Positions 13,406 through 19,746 of a stretch of DNA of 64,000 nt are shown one piece after another. This DNA comes from Bradyrhizobium sp. CIAT3101 (GTDB lineage Bacteria; Pseudomonadota; Alphaproteobacteria; Rhizobiales; Xanthobacteraceae). Where the stretch lies: the NCBI RefSeq assembly GCF_029714945.1, contig NZ_CP121634.1, forward strand, positions 4,733,001 through 4,797,000. The letters run 5' to 3'. A program made the position numbers and the translations under genes. The notes beneath the pieces were generated by a model. The model had not been told where the DNA came from and searched no databases. It was given only the letters and a program-made list of their open reading frames with translations. Each line of letters starts with the position of its first letter. The first letter of the stretch is position 1.

Positions 13406-13585
13406 CTATTCGATCGCGACGGCGAGCCGGCCGATCAGGGCCGCGACTTCGTCCAGCCGCGCCGAATCGGGGGTCTCGACCGCACGGGCGAGACAGGCCA
13501 GGCACTCATCGTCGCTCAATTCGGGAATGTCGGCCGGCAGAATCGAGGGGGCCAGGCGGGCGCGGTCGATCTGGATGTCGGGCAT
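13406..13585 (-). CDS. 59-residue hypothetical protein
   Basis: A small open frame read directly from the sequence: ATG at 13585, stop TAG at 13406-13408, with GGAG 10 nt upstream of the start. The product is acidic and helical, beginning MPDIQIDRARLAPSILPAD and containing a CLAC pair (SDDECLACLARAVE) that could bind metal or form a disulfide. There is no signal peptide or membrane span. It lies 136 nt upstream of pcm on the same strand, so it may be the first gene of that unit. I do not recognise the family. Confidence 0.5.
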   Translation of the reverse strand: MPDIQIDRARLAPSILPADIPELSDDECLACLARAVETPDSARLDEVAALIGRLAVAIE

Positions 13586-13798
13586 GGGAATCAGCTCCGT
13601 AAGAGTCCGGCCCGATCACGCTCGATTTGAATTAAGTCGATTTGGCGCCGTCGGCGTGGCTGCGGTGCCGCCGCCATACACATCCAGTTGATCGCGATTC
13701 TGCGGGGGCCAAGGCGGAACACCACTGAGAAATTGAGCGAGCAGCATCGTACGTCGCATCAGCGAGCGTCGGCAAACAATTGAAAATGAAGCGGAATT

Positions 13799-13873
13799 TG
13801 GCTCCCCGGGCTGGATTCGAACCAGCGACCATCCGATTAACAGTCGGATGCTCTACCGCTGAGCTACCGAGGA
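13799..13873 (-). tRNA. tRNA-Asn (GTT)
   Basis: A 75-nt cloverleaf on the minus strand with acceptor stem TCCTCGG/CCGGGGA, discriminator G and an encoded CCA at 13799-13801. The D arm is GCTCAGCGGTAGAGC, the anticodon stem-loop ATCCGACTGTTAATCGGAT gives anticodon GTT, and the T arm contains GGTTCGAATCC. All stems pair fully. The frame read across it on the minus strand is spurious. Confidence 0.97.
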
Positions 13874-13968
13874 AAAGGCGAACCAGTCGTTCGCGCGCGG
13901 CTGCGTATAACAAAGCCGCTTGCGCTTGCAAAGGACGAATTCGCCATCCCTCGCAAAGCATCGAGGAA

Positions 13969-13983
13969 GGGCCTCTCCGGCCC
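13969..13983 (-). terminator. small GC stem-loop after the 123-residue secreted protein gene
   Basis: GGGCC and GGCCC pair around a 5-nt loop, 25 nt beyond the stop of the minus-strand gene ending at 14009. No T run follows, so it is only a possible terminator. Confidence 0.3.
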
Positions 13984-14008
13984 CTCCCCTTGGCCATCCG
14001 GGCCGATA

Positions 14009-14380
14009 TTACTCGGCGATGAAGGACGTGGTCTTGGTGCCGGGGTCGTAGCGCAGCCGAAGCGCGGTCATCTTGCAGAGGTTGACATTTTTCCAGAGCA
14101 CAGACTCGTCATAGTTCTGCCAGTCGACGCGGATGTTCCAGACGCAGCCCTCGTCGTCCTCCTCGAACTCGACATAGGTCGAGGCCTGGTTCTGCAAAAC
14201 CTTGTCCAGCTCGTTGTCCCATTCGTCCAAGCCATCGTCCGGCGCGTTGAAGCCGAGGAATTTGATGGCATAGCCGGTCTCGTTGACGACGGTGACGTTG
14301 CGGGCATCGGCGGCGAACGACGACGGAGTAGCTACGATCGCAAGTCCGATCGCGACCAGTCCAGACAGAAAAAACTTCAT
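14009..14380 (-). CDS. 123-residue secreted hypothetical protein
   Basis: It begins with a clear Sec signal peptide (MKFFLSGLVAIGLAIVATPS, cleavage after SSFA), leaving a mature acidic domain of about 99 residues. This starts with a beta strand pattern (ARNVTVVNETGYAIKFL) and contains two cysteines in CVWNI and NLCKM that may form a periplasmic disulfide. The opening VTVVNxTGYxI recalls small periplasmic beta-sandwich proteins of rhizobia, but I do not recognise a characterised family. It stands alone, with tRNA-Asn downstream and the flotillin operon upstream. Confidence 0.8.
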   Translation of the reverse strand: MKFFLSGLVAIGLAIVATPSSFAADARNVTVVNETGYAIKFLGFNAPDDGLDEWDNELDKVLQNQASTYVEFEEDDEGCVWNIRVDWQNYDESVLWKNVNLCKMTALRLRYDPGTKTTSFIAE

Positions 14381-14517
14381 GTGAAATTCTCCGGATCGAA
14401 ACAGGCTCCGGCGCCTGACGTCGATCGGCGCAGGCGCCGCGGCAACCGATGGCGTTGCCTGGGAGGGTTCGTCCGGAGCGAGATCGAGAGGTTCGATACG
14501 CCCTCAATCCACGCTCC

Positions 14518-14551
14518 GGCTCGTTGCGCGACGCGAGACGCGCAACGAGCC
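14518..14551. terminator. 13-bp stem-loop downstream of the flotillin operon
   Basis: GGCTCGTTGCGCG and its exact complement form 13-bp arms around an 8-nt loop, about 43 nt past the stop of the flotillin gene. It is a very stable hairpin. No clear T tract is present on either side, so termination may be partial, but the position fits the end of the yqiK operon. Confidence 0.6.
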
Positions 14552-14593
14552 AGTTCTTATCGATTCGAATTCTCAGCAGCAATGAACCGGCAT

Positions 14594-16300
14594 TCATAGA
14601 TCGGCGGTGTTTGCTTTCTCCGGCGCAGGCACGGTCGCAGGCGCGACCGCAGCACCATTGGCCTTGCAGGTCACGGCGCCGACCAGCGCCTTCACCGGAT
14701 CATCGCCCGGTGCAAAACCGCTCTGGCGCAGGATCTCGTCGATCATCGGACGCAGCGCGTGAACCTTGAGAAGCTCGCCGGCGAGCCCCTCACCGAAGCC
14801 GACGCCGCCCGCAGCGCCATTACCATTGCCGCCGAAAGCGCCGCCGGTGTGCAGGATGCGGACGTCCTTGAGGTTGGCGATCGGTCTGACCATCTCGGCC
14901 AGCGCCGACGGCATCGTCTCGATCCGCTTCTTGGCGATCTCGAAATCGATGACGTTGGCGCCGAGCTTGTTCTGCGCCTCGTTCTTCATGGTGATGACGG
15001 CAGCCTCGGCCTCACCGATGTTGCGGACGCCGACCGCCTTGATCTTGTTGGACTCGGCTTCGGCCGTGGCCAGCGTCTTGACGGCCTCGGCGCGGTCGAG
15101 CGATGCCTTCTTCTCGGCTTCGGCGGCGACGATCAGCTCGGTCGATTTGCGCTCGGCTTCCGTGCGCGCGGCGAGCACCTGGGTCAGGCGGGCGCGATCG
15201 GCGACCTCGACCGCGCGTGCGGTGACGACCTTTTCCTCTGCGGAGACGGCCAGCGCTTCCGCAGTCTTGGCTTCGGCCACGGCCTCCGAAGTCTGCTTGC
15301 TCTTGGACGCGATCTGGATCTCGTTCTCCTGGGTGGCGATCTGGATCTCGCGCTGGGCGTCGGTCTTGCGCTTGTTGATGGCGAGGTCCGACTCGATGAC
15401 CGCGGTTTCCTTGACCTGCTTGGCTCCCGCCTCCTTTTCCGCGACGGCCCGATCGGTGTCGATGCGGGCATTCTCCTCGGTCAGGCGCGCGGTCTGCGTG
15501 GCGGTCGCGACTTCCGCGCGGGTGCTCGCGGTCTTGTTGGCGATGTCGCGCTCCTGCGACAGCTCGGCCTCCTTCTTGGTCCGCTCGATGGTCAGGGTCT
15601 GCTGCCGTGCCTCGAGGTCTTTCTGGGCGATCGCGACCTCGTTGTCGCGCACGATGGCGTTACGGTCGCGCCGGCGGGTTTCGGTAATGGTCTTCAGTTG
15701 GGTCAAACCTTCGGCGTCGAAGAAGTTTTCCGGATTGAAGAACTTGACGTCGGTCTGGTCCAGCTTAGTCAGGGACACCGACTCCAGTTCGAGGCCGTTC
15801 GACTTGACGTCGGACTCCACGGTCGATTGCACGTGCTTGACGAAGTCCGAACGCTTTTCCTGAAGTTCCAGAATGGTCATGGTCGCCGCGACCGAGCGCA
15901 GGCCGTCGACGAATTTGGCCTCGACCTGGTTGCGCAACGCTTCGGCATCGTTGGTCAGCGCACCCAGCGTCTGGCTCGCCAGCGCGATGCTCTCCTCGTC
16001 GGGCCGGACGCGGACGTAGAACTCAGCGACGATGTCGACGCGCAAACGGTCCTTGGTGATGAGCGATTCCCGCTCCTTGCGCTCGACGGTCAGCCGCAGC
16101 GTCTTCAGGTTGATGCTGCCATAGGAGTGAAAGATCGGCAGGATCATGGCGCCACCGTCGAGCACGACCTTCTTGCCGCCGAGGCCAGTGCGCACGAACG
16201 CCTCGTCGCGCGTGGCGCGCTTATAGAGGATGGTGAAGATGATCCCGAGGACAACGATCAGCGCGACGCCGATCATGGCCGGGACTGCGATGTCGAACAT
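14594..16300 (-). CDS. yqiK: flotillin-like SPFH protein (YqiK family)
   Basis: A 568-residue protein with one N-terminal membrane helix (residues about 8-28), an SPFH/band-7 domain (residues about 45-210, including RVRPDEESIALASQTLGAL) and a very long Ala/Glu/Lys coiled coil (about 220-470, with repeated AEAKTAEA and EKKASLDRAEA type segments). The tail is Gly-rich. This is the layout of bacterial flotillins, which form membrane scaffolds. It starts 11 nt after the stop of the YqiJ gene, the partner it has in E. coli yqiJK. With the PspA protein upstream this makes a membrane-integrity operon. Confidence 0.92.
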   Translation of the reverse strand: MFDIAVPAMIGVALIVVLGIIFTILYKRATRDEAFVRTGLGGKKVVLDGGAMILPIFHSYGSINLKTLRLTVERKERESLITKDRLRVDIVAEFYVRVRPDEESIALASQTLGALTNDAEALRNQVEAKFVDGLRSVAATMTILELQEKRSDFVKHVQSTVESDVKSNGLELESVSLTKLDQTDVKFFNPENFFDAEGLTQLKTITETRRRDRNAIVRDNEVAIAQKDLEARQQTLTIERTKKEAELSQERDIANKTASTRAEVATATQTARLTEENARIDTDRAVAEKEAGAKQVKETAVIESDLAINKRKTDAQREIQIATQENEIQIASKSKQTSEAVAEAKTAEALAVSAEEKVVTARAVEVADRARLTQVLAARTEAERKSTELIVAAEAEKKASLDRAEAVKTLATAEAESNKIKAVGVRNIGEAEAAVITMKNEAQNKLGANVIDFEIAKKRIETMPSALAEMVRPIANLKDVRILHTGGAFGGNGNGAAGGVGFGEGLAGELLKVHALRPMIDEILRQSGFAPGDDPVKALVGAVTCKANGAAVAPATVPAPEKANTADL

Positions 16301-16311
16301 GACTTTCTCCG

Positions 16312-16980
16312 CTAATGGACTTGCTGGCTTAGAGTGGGTTTGGTCGGTTTGAGTTCATCGTCGGCCTTCACCGCGACGAAACGGGTGTCGACGCGATCAA
16401 CCAGGAGGACGAGGGTCCCCTGCGGCAATGGCGCCGAGTCGGGTGCGGCGACCGCCAGTACAAAATGCCTGTTGCCGTGCACGTCGGCGACGCTGACGCG
16501 ACCGGGCGGTCCCTGGTCGAGGGGACCAACCACGACCTCACCGACGCGGCCGACGAGATCGCCGAGGCCGACCGCATAGCTTTCGTCCTTGGGGATGATG
16601 CGCGCGATGCCGCTGCTGGCGGCGCGGACCAGTGGGACCGAGACGACGACCGCCGCGAGTGAAGCGATCGAGGCCGGCAAGGGACCGGCCACCATCCGCG
16701 CGACATCCTGGATCAGGAAACCGGTGATGGAAAAGGCGCCGAGCGCCAGCAGCAGGAAGATCAGCAGCGGCACGCCGCCGACATTCATCCAGGAGATGGC
16801 GTTGATCACGCCGTTGTCGCTGGGATGGCTGAAATCGACGCTGGTGCCGAGCATCTCGCTGAGCGAGGCTCCGACCAGCATCGTGACCACTTCGAGCGTG
16901 CCGACGATGAGGATCATGGCCGCGGCGATCGCGAACGGCCTGACCTCGGGCGACATGACGTGTTCGAGCAATGCGCTCAT
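16312..16980 (-). CDS. yqiJ: YqiJ/NfeD-like membrane protein with OB-fold domain
   Basis: A 222-residue protein with an N-terminal helix (residues about 14-35), further membrane segments near 65-88 and 100-120, and a C-terminal soluble OB-like domain (GDLVGRVGEVVVGPLDQG, then GRVSVADVHGNRHFVLA). This matches YqiJ (DUF1449), the NfeD-type partner of flotillins. It starts 10 nt after the end of the PspA frame and ends 11 nt before the flotillin start, so all three are very probably one transcript. Confidence 0.88.
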   Translation of the reverse strand: MSALLEHVMSPEVRPFAIAAAMILIVGTLEVVTMLVGASLSEMLGTSVDFSHPSDNGVINAISWMNVGGVPLLIFLLLALGAFSITGFLIQDVARMVAGPLPASIASLAAVVVSVPLVRAASSGIARIIPKDESYAVGLGDLVGRVGEVVVGPLDQGPPGRVSVADVHGNRHFVLAVAAPDSAPLPQGTLVLLVDRVDTRFVAVKADDELKPTKPTLSQQVH

Positions 16981-16990
16981 GACACGAACC

Positions 16991-18145
16991 TCAGGAGCGC
17001 GACTTCAACCGCGCGAGCCTCGCCGCAATCTCCTTGTTGCGATGCAACGCGCTGAGCTCGTCGATGTCGCTGGAATAAGGAATGCCCGGCGGCACGCCGG
17101 TGACGCGGGCCACTGCCCTGCCCGCGCGCAACGCCTTGCCCGCCGCGGACGTGCCGCCACGTTTGCGGGGCGAGGTCGAGGCCTGGTGGCTGGCCGCCGC
17201 CTCGCTCTTCTCCAGATCGACGCGCCGCTGCTCGGCATCCTGGAGCGCCGAGAGCACCGCACGCAGCGACGTCACGCATTGCTCGATCTTCTCGTTGTTC
17301 TCGTCGATGGCGCGGGAGAGCACCTCGAACTGCGCTTCCAGGTCCATCTGCCGCGCGATGCCGGCGCGGGCAAGATCGTCGCGGCCATCTGCGATCGCAC
17401 CCTCAATCTTGGCGGCGAGATCGGTCATCTCGCGTTCGATCTCGGTGCGGCGCGCATTGAGGCGATATTCCTCGGCGCGCGCGGCCGCGAGCGCATCGCG
17501 CGCCTCGCTCTCGGCACGCTCGATCTCGCGGATGGCCTGGCCGACCACTTTCAGCTTGTTGTTGCCTTCCGCCTGCTCGATCGCGTCATAGGCGATGCCG
17601 GCGATCAGACGTCCGACCCGGGACAGGAAATTTTCGGGAGCGGCAGCGATGGTATCCATAGCGTTCTCCTCCTCTGGCAGACTGTTCGGCGTGACGCCGT
17701 AGTGAACCTCGAAACCGTCGTCGGTGCGGATCAGGTGCGCGGGCACGCTCTGGCCCCAGCCCTCCGCGTAGCCGGCGTAGTCGAAGGGCACGCTGAAGCG
17801 TCCCTGTACGGTCGATATCGAAATCGTGGCCGGGCCTTTGATCTTGGCGAGCTTGTCGTCGAGCGGCAGGCGGCGGCCTTGTGCCGCGCGATAGTCGGCG
17901 CGGTCGCGCAGGCCCAGCGTCACCAGCCGCGACGGCAGCGCGGTCTCCTTGCGGATCGGCTCATAGGCATGGGCATGCAGCAGCACGACGTTGGAGCCCA
18001 CATTATGGGTCCGCGCGACCTCGTCGAGAATCTCCATCATGCGGTCATAGGCCTGGAACGTCGCCTCCATCGCGGCCTTGGCGGCCGGGTCAGGGGCTAG
18101 CCTGTAACGCAGCGCCGATGGCGCATGTCGGGGCGACGGGCTCAT
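16991..18145 (-). CDS. TnpB-like N-terminal region in frame with a PspA/IM30-family protein
   Basis: An uninterrupted 384-codon frame from ATG 18145 with two unlike halves. Residues 1-162 resemble the N-terminal half of TnpB/Cas12f-type nucleases. There is an LRYRLAPDP opening strand, a helical part containing LHAHAYEPIRKETALPSRLV, and a beta-barrel (WED-like) stretch LPLDDKLAKIKGP, then TISISTVQGRFSVPF, then LIRTDDGFEVHYGV. The RuvC and zinc-finger parts are absent. From Met163 the product is a PspA/IM30 coiled-coil protein (222 residues, MDTIAAAPENFLSRVGRLIA onward), which binds and protects the inner membrane. A strong AGGAGG lies 8 nt before codon 163, so the PspA part can be made alone as well as fused. 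Genes for YqiJ and flotillin follow. The TnpB resemblance is from memory of the family pattern, not a search. Confidence 0.75.
   Translation of the reverse strand: MSPSPRHAPSALRYRLAPDPAAKAAMEATFQAYDRMMEILDEVARTHNVGSNVVLLHAHAYEPIRKETALPSRLVTLGLRDRADYRAAQGRRLPLDDKLAKIKGPATISISTVQGRFSVPFDYAGYAEGWGQSVPAHLIRTDDGFEVHYGVTPNSLPEEENAMDTIAAAPENFLSRVGRLIAGIAYDAIEQAEGNNKLKVVGQAIREIERAESEARDALAAARAEEYRLNARRTEIEREMTDLAAKIEGAIADGRDDLARAGIARQMDLEAQFEVLSRAIDENNEKIEQCVTSLRAVLSALQDAEQRRVDLEKSEAAASHQASTSPRKRGGTSAAGKALRAGRAVARVTGVPPGIPYSSDIDELSALHRNKEIAARLARLKSRS
17668..17673 (-). promoter_or_regulatory. strong internal ribosome-binding site for the PspA start at 17659
   Basis: AGGAGG on the minus strand, 8 nt upstream of ATG 17659, inside the coding frame of the TnpB-like segment. 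Its quality argues that translation of the PspA protein normally starts here (222 residues), even though the upstream frame runs into it without a stop codon. Confidence 0.75.
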
Positions 18146-18603
18146 GGAAAGCACTAAAGCACCATTTTGGTGCTTTACAAGGGGGGAGCTCAATCACGTT
18201 CCACTGATCCTGATGCACTCGGAGGGTTAGTCGCTGTCGCCCGGGGCTGCGTTCAAGGCGCGCCATCACCTCTAAATCACCGCGGATCAAGACTTCTTGC
18301 ACGCGCGGGTTGCAATTTTACGGAAAGTCCCTGCGGACCCGGAACAGGATGCGGTGTGGGCGCGGCCGTCTCCCAACCGTCACGCCCCCTCTGACCGGGG
18401 GTGAGGTGAAGGAGGAATGCGTCAAATCAGAATTTCCGTAAAGGCGAATATGTTGCCGGGCGTGGATTGACGGGGGCGCGGTGTGCTTTGCCCGACGGCC
18501 AACACGAGGGATGGTGTTTTGTACGGGACTGCGCCATCAATCCGGAACGGGACTGTCCTCAAGCGTCCGCCGACAGCGCGGTTCGAGACCGGGAAACCCA
18601 TCG
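18146..18603. other. 458-nt divergent intergenic region
   Basis: Separates the PspA operon (-) from the receptor-like gene (+). Besides the dyad at 18155-18177 it contains a 10-bp inverted pair, TTTACGGAAA at 18317-18326 and TTTCCGTAAA at 18433-18442, 106 nt apart, and a GGGACTGTCC motif near 18551. I see no convincing gene here; short frames on both strands lack family features. Confidence 0.5.
18155..18177. promoter_or_regulatory. 9-bp dyad upstream of the TnpB-like/PspA operon
   Basis: TAAAGCACC and GGTGCTTTA form a perfect inverted repeat around a 5-nt AT-rich centre, 9 nt upstream of ATG 18145. A further partial copy, AAAGCAC at 18148-18154, lies between the dyad and the start codon, so the half-site occurs three times. 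It looks like an operator or leader hairpin controlling the operon; the binding factor is unknown. Confidence 0.55.
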
Positions 18604-19746
18604 ATGCCTCGTCCGCAACCGGCGACCAGCTCTCGCGCTCGAAGCGATCGGCTGCCCTGGTCGGTCGTAGCCAATGTCGTGCGCGGGCTGGTATGGGCAC
18701 TGCTCGTCTGCATGACCTGGTCGCCGGCTCAGGCCGAGACCGCCAAGCTCCGGGTGGCGACCCGCATCGTGCCGCCCATGGTCGTCGAGAAGAACGGCAC
18801 GCTGACCGGCTTCAGTATCGAGCTCTGGAACAGCATTGGCAGACAACTGAACCGCGAGACCGAATACGTCGTGTTGCCCGATGTGCGCGAATTGCTCGAT
18901 GCCGTGGGACATGGACAGGCCGATCTCGCCATCGCAGCCATCTCGATCACGTCGGAGCGGGAAGACAGATTCGACTTCTCTCAGCCGATCATGAACTCCG
19001 GCCTGCAGATTCTTGTTCGCGGCACGGCCGTGAATGTCGAGGCCAATCCGCTGCGCGAGCTGGCGCAACTGTTCTTCTCGCGCACCCTGCTGGTCTGGCT
19101 CGGCATCGCGCTTCTCCTGATCCTCGTGCCGGCGCATCTGATGTTCCTGGTCGAGCGCACGCATCACAGCGGGATCATTCCAACCAGGAACTATTTCCCG
19201 GGAATCTTCCATGCGATGTTCTGGGCGGCAGGCACGCTGGCCACCCAGGCGGATCAAATGCCACGGCACTGGATGGCGCGGATCGTCGCCGTGCTGTGGA
19301 TGTTCACGGGCGTCGTGTTCGTTGCCTTCTACACGGCGCAGCTGACGGCTTCACTGACCGTGCAACAGATCAAGGGACCGATTAACGGCCCGCAGGATCT
19401 CGTCGGCAAGACCGTCGGTACGACGCGAGGAAGCACCGCGACCGCCTATCTGAACGAGGTCAAGGCTCAGATGGTCGAGTTTGAGAAGGTCGACGACCTC
19501 TACAATGCCCTGTTGAACCACGAGATCGACGCGGTCGTGTTCGATGCACCCGCGCTGCTCTACTACACGACCCACGATGGCCGGGGATCGGCGCGGACCG
19601 TCGGCGAGGTGTTCCACAAGGAAGATTACGGCATCGTCTTTCCGACCGGCAGCCCGTTGCGCAAGCAGGTCAACGAAGCCCTGTTGGGGCTACGCGAGAG
19701 CGACAGGTACCAGAGGATCTATGAGGAATGGTTCGGCAAGCGCTAG
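18604..19746 (+). CDS. prokaryotic ionotropic glutamate receptor-like ligand-gated channel
   Basis: A 380-residue protein. After a signal sequence (residues about 20-45, ending SPAQA) comes the first lobe of an amino-acid-binding domain (LRVATRIVPPMV to about 150, with FSIELWNSI and ITSEREDRFDFSQPI). Then come a membrane helix M1 (about 162-184), a re-entrant pore segment (about 200-217), a second helix (about 225-250) ending in AFYTAQLTASLTVQQIKGPI, and finally the second lobe of the binding domain (LVGKTVGTTRGST to the end). YTAQLTASLT corresponds to the SYTANLAAFLT signature of eukaryotic glutamate receptors. The pore reads GTLATQAD, without the GYG filter of GluR0. ATG 18604 gives the signal peptide; the longer frame from 18481 does not. 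Confidence 0.85.
   Translation: MPRPQPATSSRARSDRLPWSVVANVVRGLVWALLVCMTWSPAQAETAKLRVATRIVPPMVVEKNGTLTGFSIELWNSIGRQLNRETEYVVLPDVRELLDAVGHGQADLAIAAISITSEREDRFDFSQPIMNSGLQILVRGTAVNVEANPLRELAQLFFSRTLLVWLGIALLLILVPAHLMFLVERTHHSGIIPTRNYFPGIFHAMFWAAGTLATQADQMPRHWMARIVAVLWMFTGVVFVAFYTAQLTASLTVQQIKGPINGPQDLVGKTVGTTRGSTATAYLNEVKAQMVEFEKVDDLYNALLNHEIDAVVFDAPALLYYTTHDGRGSARTVGEVFHKEDYGIVFPTGSPLRKQVNEALLGLRESDRYQRIYEEWFGKR

Follow-up and report, generated by a model that had tools for sequence, protein, structure and literature searches.

The N-terminal 162 residues of a PspA/IM30-type protein from Bradyrhizobium sp. CIAT3101, hereafter X, descend from the recognition lobe of TnpB, as was shown computationally by colinear sequence and by fold. 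We consider it fairly probable that this exapted lobe is now RNA-independent, and that X-PspA reads a dyad in its own promoter, represses its operon and is released by membrane stress. The fusion is a single minus-strand frame of 384 residues, running from an ATG at 18145–18143 to a stop codon that ends at 16991 of the window (i.e., the whole stretch of 64,000 nucleotides that was analysed, from a genome comprising a single contig of 9.37 Mb). An earlier note, made from the letters alone, had placed a frame here, and the segments it quoted (RYRLAPDP, LHAHAYEPIR, LPSRLV, ISISTVQGRFSVPF and LIRTDDGFEVHYGV) were all present; the succession of PspA/IM30, YqiJ and flotillin that it described was matched by Pfam families, with the genes on the same strand (Table 1). 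The PspA part was divergent, and from residue 163 onward it scored 50.9 bits against PspA_IM30, above the cut-off of 33.9, placing it in that family.

Table 1. Features of the X-PspA locus, in window coordinates
Feature	Position	Strand	Basis or remark
X, TnpB-type recognition lobe (WED+REC), RuvC absent	17660..18145	-	fusion residues 1-162
PspA/IM30 part, own in-frame ATG at 17659	16991..17659	-	PF04012
YqiJ, NfeD-like membrane protein	16312..16980	-	PF21001, PF07290 (YqiJ_N/YqiJ_OB)
YqiK-type flotillin	14594..16300	-	PF15975, PF01145 (Flot/Band_7)
Internal Shine-Dalgarno AGGAGG, 8 nt ahead of PspA ATG	17668..17673	-	sequence
Dyad, putative operator AAAGCACC-N5-GGTGCTTT	18156..18176	.	5' end 31 nt upstream of X start codon
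Predicted -35 TTGTAA	18175..18180	-	best-scoring pair
Predicted -10 TTTAGT, end 7 nt upstream of ATG	18153..18158	-	best-scoring pair

Two further genes were seen nearby: a tRNA gene on the minus strand (13802–13873, 72.9 bits) and a divergent neighbour on the plus strand (18481–19746), whose 421-residue frame resembled, by eye, a periplasmic-binding-protein-like ion channel.

The AF2 model of X (pLDDT 88.1) consisted of a strand (10–16), four helices (20–47, 53–68, 72–80 and 82–87) and a further set of strands (92–151). This is a WED barrel with a helical REC inserted after the first strand, the arrangement that marks the TnpB/Cas12 superfamily. Structure comparison against the PDB, which the earlier note had proposed as a check, placed TnpB, Cas12f and Fanzor on top, and all 50 of the 50 matches listed belonged to the superfamily; Foldseek with the X model returned nothing at E ≤ 0.001 in either PDB or BFVD (best 5.2e-3 and 1.1e-3 respectively). 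At E ≤ 1, neither Pfam nor NCBIfam had a model that matched residues 1–162. When 13 family members were compared with Pfam at E ≤ 10, the best 25 of 58 families were PspA and mostly coiled-coil families, with no TnpB family among them, while a sequence search of the PDB with a 108-row profile found 15 sequences, each with its best stretch at profile positions ≥168, beyond X. Since neither the family libraries nor the PDB sequence search produced a TnpB match, folds and InsQ-type profiles were needed to make the link.

A six-frame search of 398 genomes from the phylum with the X profile matched 12 of them. Nine of these carried X-PspA loci, two matched weakly and one held an intact TnpB (E = 3.3e-10). 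The intact TnpB, P0138, carries PF01385 and PF07282, and its close relatives are named InsQ/TnpB. Alignment of the X profile (14 rows) with 35 InsQ-type TnpBs by hhalign gave a probability of 97.6 over 141 columns (E = 2.9e-12), and a single pair of sequences was similar by BLASTP alone (E = 3e-5). Furthermore, the X profile matched 120 of 120 InsQ-type TnpBs, with a median of 42.6 bits; none of the reversed or shuffled TnpB copies matched, their best score being 3.7 bits, which rules out chance resemblance. Control hhalign comparisons with an unrelated profile gave probabilities of 1.0% and 0.2%. Canonical TnpBs showed no clear match, and only one (L139) of 30 loci fetched by PF01385 clearly matched the X profile, a set in which the frame compared was not TnpB for at least four (L113, L119, L128 and L136). 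When the InsQ profile was used in the PDB search, the best stretches began at InsQ position 122 or later. A TnpB in this genome was considered as a recent source of X and was not found (PF01385, 0 matches). The assignment of residues 1–162 to the N-terminal half of TnpB/Cas12f, as claimed from the letters, was thus borne out by structure comparison and, independently, by sequence profiles. The missing nuclease domain that had been remarked upon was likewise real: the 384-residue frame, which runs from X directly into PspA, matched no TnpB nuclease family (RuvC, TNB zinc finger), so that RuvC is wholly absent and PspA stands in its stead.

The fusion was conserved. Of 121 X loci (some genomes being counted repeatedly), 120 had X and PspA in a single open frame, with no stop or frameshift between them down to approximately 37% identity over the whole frame. 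Among Bradyrhizobium loci, dN/dS was 0.077 for X and 0.083 for PspA (61 pairs against L001; L058 and L059 were omitted for a codon indel). Together, the low ratio and the single frame show that X is more than a chance reading frame and is under purifying selection. YqiJ followed on the same strand at all 121 loci and flotillin at 114; the other seven loci stopped no more than about 850 nt from the frame. With one X as the query, a protein search retrieved 468 proteins at E ≤ 1, and a PspA domain was present in 120 of 120 among the matches listed.

The survey of other genomes that had been suggested found X conserved ahead of PspA-YqiJ-YqiK in several families and in many alphaproteobacteria. 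Within the family, 9 of the 198 genomes carried X. The order yielded 21 matches among 297 genomes, 15 genomes having X and the other six matching in the PspA part only; for the class there were 17 matches among 385 genomes, six with X and 11 with PspA alone. Among groups picked around earlier finds, it occurred in 5/131, 4/5, 8/20 and 4/17 genomes. The operon is patchy even within the genus, at least four complete Bradyrhizobium genomes (G122, G138, G153 and G187) having no X match. At one locus (L178, genome G1320), X lay directly upstream of YqiJ and flotillin, with no PspA match within 3.4 kb and with the dyad retained. The most diverged X-PspA found (L163, genome G1287) had a long branch in the tree and a poor dyad match. 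A contig titled Frankia sp. RB7 (L011) carried a Bradyrhizobium-like copy with X 97% identical, which probably reflects a wrong label or contamination.

The dyad upstream of X had the consensus cTTGAAAGCACCAAAgnnGTGCTTTATa; at most loci it began 31–33 nt upstream of the start codon of X. In this genome, AAAGCACC-N5-GGTGCTTT had one perfect site, no sites with one mismatch and one with two. The 121 X loci comprised 52 distinct forms, among which the arms varied as GCAC/GTGC, GGAC/GTCC (L082, L177) and ACAC/GTGT (L088). In a sample of 25 operators, hand-picked from the 52, 87% of arm cells paired, compared with 31–50% when one arm was slid, and the covariation score was 0.162 against 0.086 in shuffles (0/500 as high). 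Three pairs showed two-sided changes, which was not unusual against shuffles (113/500). Exceptions included the f11 group, where one arm was degraded, and L098 and L163, where the spacing was unlike the usual. The best score against the consensus was 13–19 of 21 among X loci and 12–15 of 21 anywhere in the 18 loci whose match was confined to the PspA part; hence, for the ten of 121 X loci at 15 or less, the match was no better than in loci without X.

Around the dyad, the best-scoring -35/-10 pair had a spacer of 16–18 nt, and the -10 ended 6–8 nt upstream of the ATG in 47 of 52 distinct loci; these pairs were picked as the best scoring near the dyad. The -35 was a weak match in Bradyrhizobium and a stronger one (TTGAAA) in most other lineages. 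Therefore, the dyad lies inside what is predicted to be the promoter of X-PspA and, save for the low-scoring, degraded-arm and odd-spacing loci, it is conserved there as would be expected of an operator read by a repressor. Seven plasmid loci from Rhizobium, Bosea, Agrobacterium and Shinella, out of 11 matches, all possessed the dyad, Arg at X residue 73 and annotated OB-fold and flotillin genes (7/7); all seven belong to the common type and say nothing about the Gln73 class described below. In 64 Bradyrhizobium loci, conserved blocks extended to 180 nt upstream of X (window approximately 18190–18330, minus strand), one of them around GATCAGTGGAACGTGAT, 50–70 nt ahead of the X start codon; these blocks could represent a second control element or promoter.

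Variation in the dyad offered a means of relating X to its putative operator. X residue 73 was Arg in all 88 distinct loci with a CAC/GTG half-site (defined by a C in position 5 of the dyad or a G in position 17) and Gln in all six distinct loci lacking it. Column 73, alone of 146, agreed with the operator in all 30 tree rows, while three others agreed in 29 of 30. On the gene tree, this match needed three changes on the best tree, and two on well-supported branches; a sign test needs more than these two to three independent changes, and the correspondence is suggestive and not significant. A contrast by genome family returned columns 73, 76 and 108 of 147, and since the gene tree did not group L082 with L085–L087, the tree count was trusted over it. 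Residues 73 and 76 sit in the helix at 72–80 of the AF2 model and were paired by hhalign with InsQ residues 65 and 68; through an A-Y-K shared by InsQ and ISDra2, aligned by eye without gaps, they correspond to F77 and Q80 of ISDra2 TnpB, which together with K76 read the TAM. MAFFT placed ISDra2 and X out of register at the TAM helix. That X reads the dyad is supported, though not proven, by the match between residue and operator, by their linkage, and by the X without PspA that keeps its dyad. Net charge averaged -0.7 in X (14 sequences) and +12.8 in InsQ N-lobes (35); this near-neutrality weakens any claim of nucleic-acid binding, that of DNA included.

The linker between X and PspA contained a second candidate translation start. 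Of 49 distinct loci examined, 45 had a Shine-Dalgarno sequence of at least 4 nt ahead of the in-frame PspA ATG; at the X start codons, by contrast, it did not exceed 3 nt in 47 of 48. From this combination, X-PspA is probably read from a leaderless mRNA, with PspA also read from inside. Given the Shine-Dalgarno sequence and ATG that PspA has of its own, cells may produce free PspA alongside the fusion.

Operons without X often carried a protein of 160–177 residues in its place before pspA (10 aligned; L089–L092, L099, L100 and L102–L105), with an N-terminus like KSVPxSVRLSxEDAxFIAxL. Neither Pfam nor NCBIfam contained a dedicated family for this protein, and nothing convincing was obtained from Pfam (three whole proteins), PDB or NCBIfam. 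One of six N-termini gave a sub-threshold match to RHH_1 (13.3 bits, E = 0.081), with NikA-like and DUF6290 matches weaker still, so the N-terminus is perhaps, on this weak similarity, a ribbon-helix-helix. Although it shares the position of X before PspA, the replacement is unrelated to it (hhalign, 0.2%), and where a dyad was found upstream its sequence was different: a pattern search located one close to TGTATACAAATGCATACA in L099, L103 and L104, and part of it in L091 and L092. No good copy of the X-locus dyad was present in operons without X. Regulator and operator may have been swapped together between operon types.

These observations can be assembled into a model. The WED and REC lobe of a TnpB would have been severed where it meets the nuclease lobe and joined to PspA, its guide RNA being no longer used. 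Oligomers formed through PspA would display X as a dimer, which would read the dyad using the helix with which TnpB reads the TAM, and X-PspA so bound would repress the X-PspA/YqiJ/YqiK operon. Were PspA to engage damaged membrane, X-PspA would leave the DNA and the operon would be expressed; translation from the internal start would then make the effector, free PspA, more abundant than the regulator, and free PspA, YqiJ and flotillin would act on the membrane.

X could instead be a protein-protein module, such as a chaperone or membrane-sensing adaptor for PspA, with the dyad read by another transcription factor. Its neutral charge would suit that role, and known PspA neighbours in related operons are described as CesT/Tir chaperone-like (PMC11237479, in the part available); X itself matched neither CesT/Tir nor DUF2170 (YjfI) in Pfam at E ≤ 1, while the fold lists may omit such families. 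Such a module seems unlikely, given that the genome holds one perfect copy of the dyad and that the dyad stays with X where PspA is absent (L178), is not found in good copy where X is missing, and varies with residue 73. We regard as distinctly unlikely the possibility that X binds RNA, i.e., that a hairpin transcribed from the dyad ahead of the start codon is bound by WED and controls translation of its own mRNA. The dyad does fold as RNA (z-score -2.65 for 121 nt), its covarying arms suit a hairpin and a DNA dyad equally, WED contacts stem 4 of the omega RNA in ISDra2, and the conserved blocks upstream in Bradyrhizobium could hold another promoter. However, the dyad lies between the -35 and the -10 in those 47 of 52 distinct loci, upstream of the predicted -10 end, so transcripts from that promoter would not include a hairpin; the positive charge of TnpB has also been lost.

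The remaining readings are both very improbable. One holds that X is still guided, with an unrecognised guide RNA encoded elsewhere, after the manner of TldRs, which are domesticated TnpBs that act as RNA-guided repressors (PMC13418256, in the part available). Omega RNA is bound in ISDra2 TnpB by RuvC together with WED, and X lacks the former as well as the charge; a fixed dyad, moreover, suggests DNA that is read by protein. An Rfam search of 13500–19500 found a tRNA, alone in reaching its gathering score, and one sub-threshold match, which also rules out an ordinary RNA family at the locus. The regulatory role that the earlier note had proposed for a domesticated remnant is supported only indirectly, by the operator evidence, and its option of TldR-like RNA guidance is not supported, given the loss of RuvC and charge and the outcome of this search. 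The other reading takes X and PspA for two coupled genes, in frame by accident, whose fusion product is unimportant; the conserved Shine-Dalgarno and ATG of PspA would agree with this, as would the solitary X of L178, but an unbroken frame in 120 of 121 loci, to the limits of divergence given above, argues against it.

Under the favoured interpretation, of a repressor derived from TnpB, X can be set beside several known systems. It resembles TnpB (ISDra2, PDB 8h1j/8exa; InsQ-type P0138) in its WED and REC lobe, its colinear sequence and its fold, including the helix with which TnpB reads the TAM. In contrast to TnpB, the RNA-guided nuclease of IS200/IS605, it has no RuvC/TNB nuclease lobe, is near-neutral, is fused to PspA and occupies a fixed place in a chromosomal operon with no guide RNA recognised. 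With TldR it shares descent from TnpB by domestication and a proposed role in transcription; TldR, however, retains an inactivated RuvC and is RNA-guided, according to the available part of PMC13418256, whereas X has no RuvC at all and probably reads DNA as a protein. PspA is also linked to band-7/flotillin and YqiJ-type genes in the PspA-YqiJ-flotillin operons of Ravi et al. 2024 (PMC11237479), as far as the accessible text describes them, although the partner there is CesT/Tir-like and here a TnpB lobe; the words TnpB, transposase and Cas12 were absent from its main text. A link between TnpB and PspA was not found in searches of the open-licence PubMed Central literature, in agreement with the earlier suggestion that loss of RuvC with linkage to PspA and flotillin would be new.

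In E. coli, PspA couples the state of the membrane to transcription of its own operon by inhibiting a separate AAA+ activator, PspF. In the model for X-PspA, by contrast, PspA would itself carry the DNA-reading domain. We lean, narrowly, towards regarding X as a DNA-binding domain that stands on its own, needs no RNA and recognises a palindromic operator through the TAM-reading helix of TnpB, its fusion making PspA a stress sensor and transcription factor in one protein. An exapted TnpB as such is of a kind already known; the domesticated TnpBs compared (Cas12, TldR) are RNA-guided and keep RuvC, active or inactivated, in the parts of the sources available. RNA-free reading of an operator, if shown, would make X a bacterial DNA-binding domain of a new class, with an RNA-guided nuclease as its ancestor, and a family with the recognition lobe only would show that TAM recognition alone can become an ordinary transcription factor. 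X would offer a minimal scaffold with which to ask how TnpB reads DNA without RNA, and control of the PspA-flotillin operon would be explained by a PspA that bears its own DNA-reading domain.
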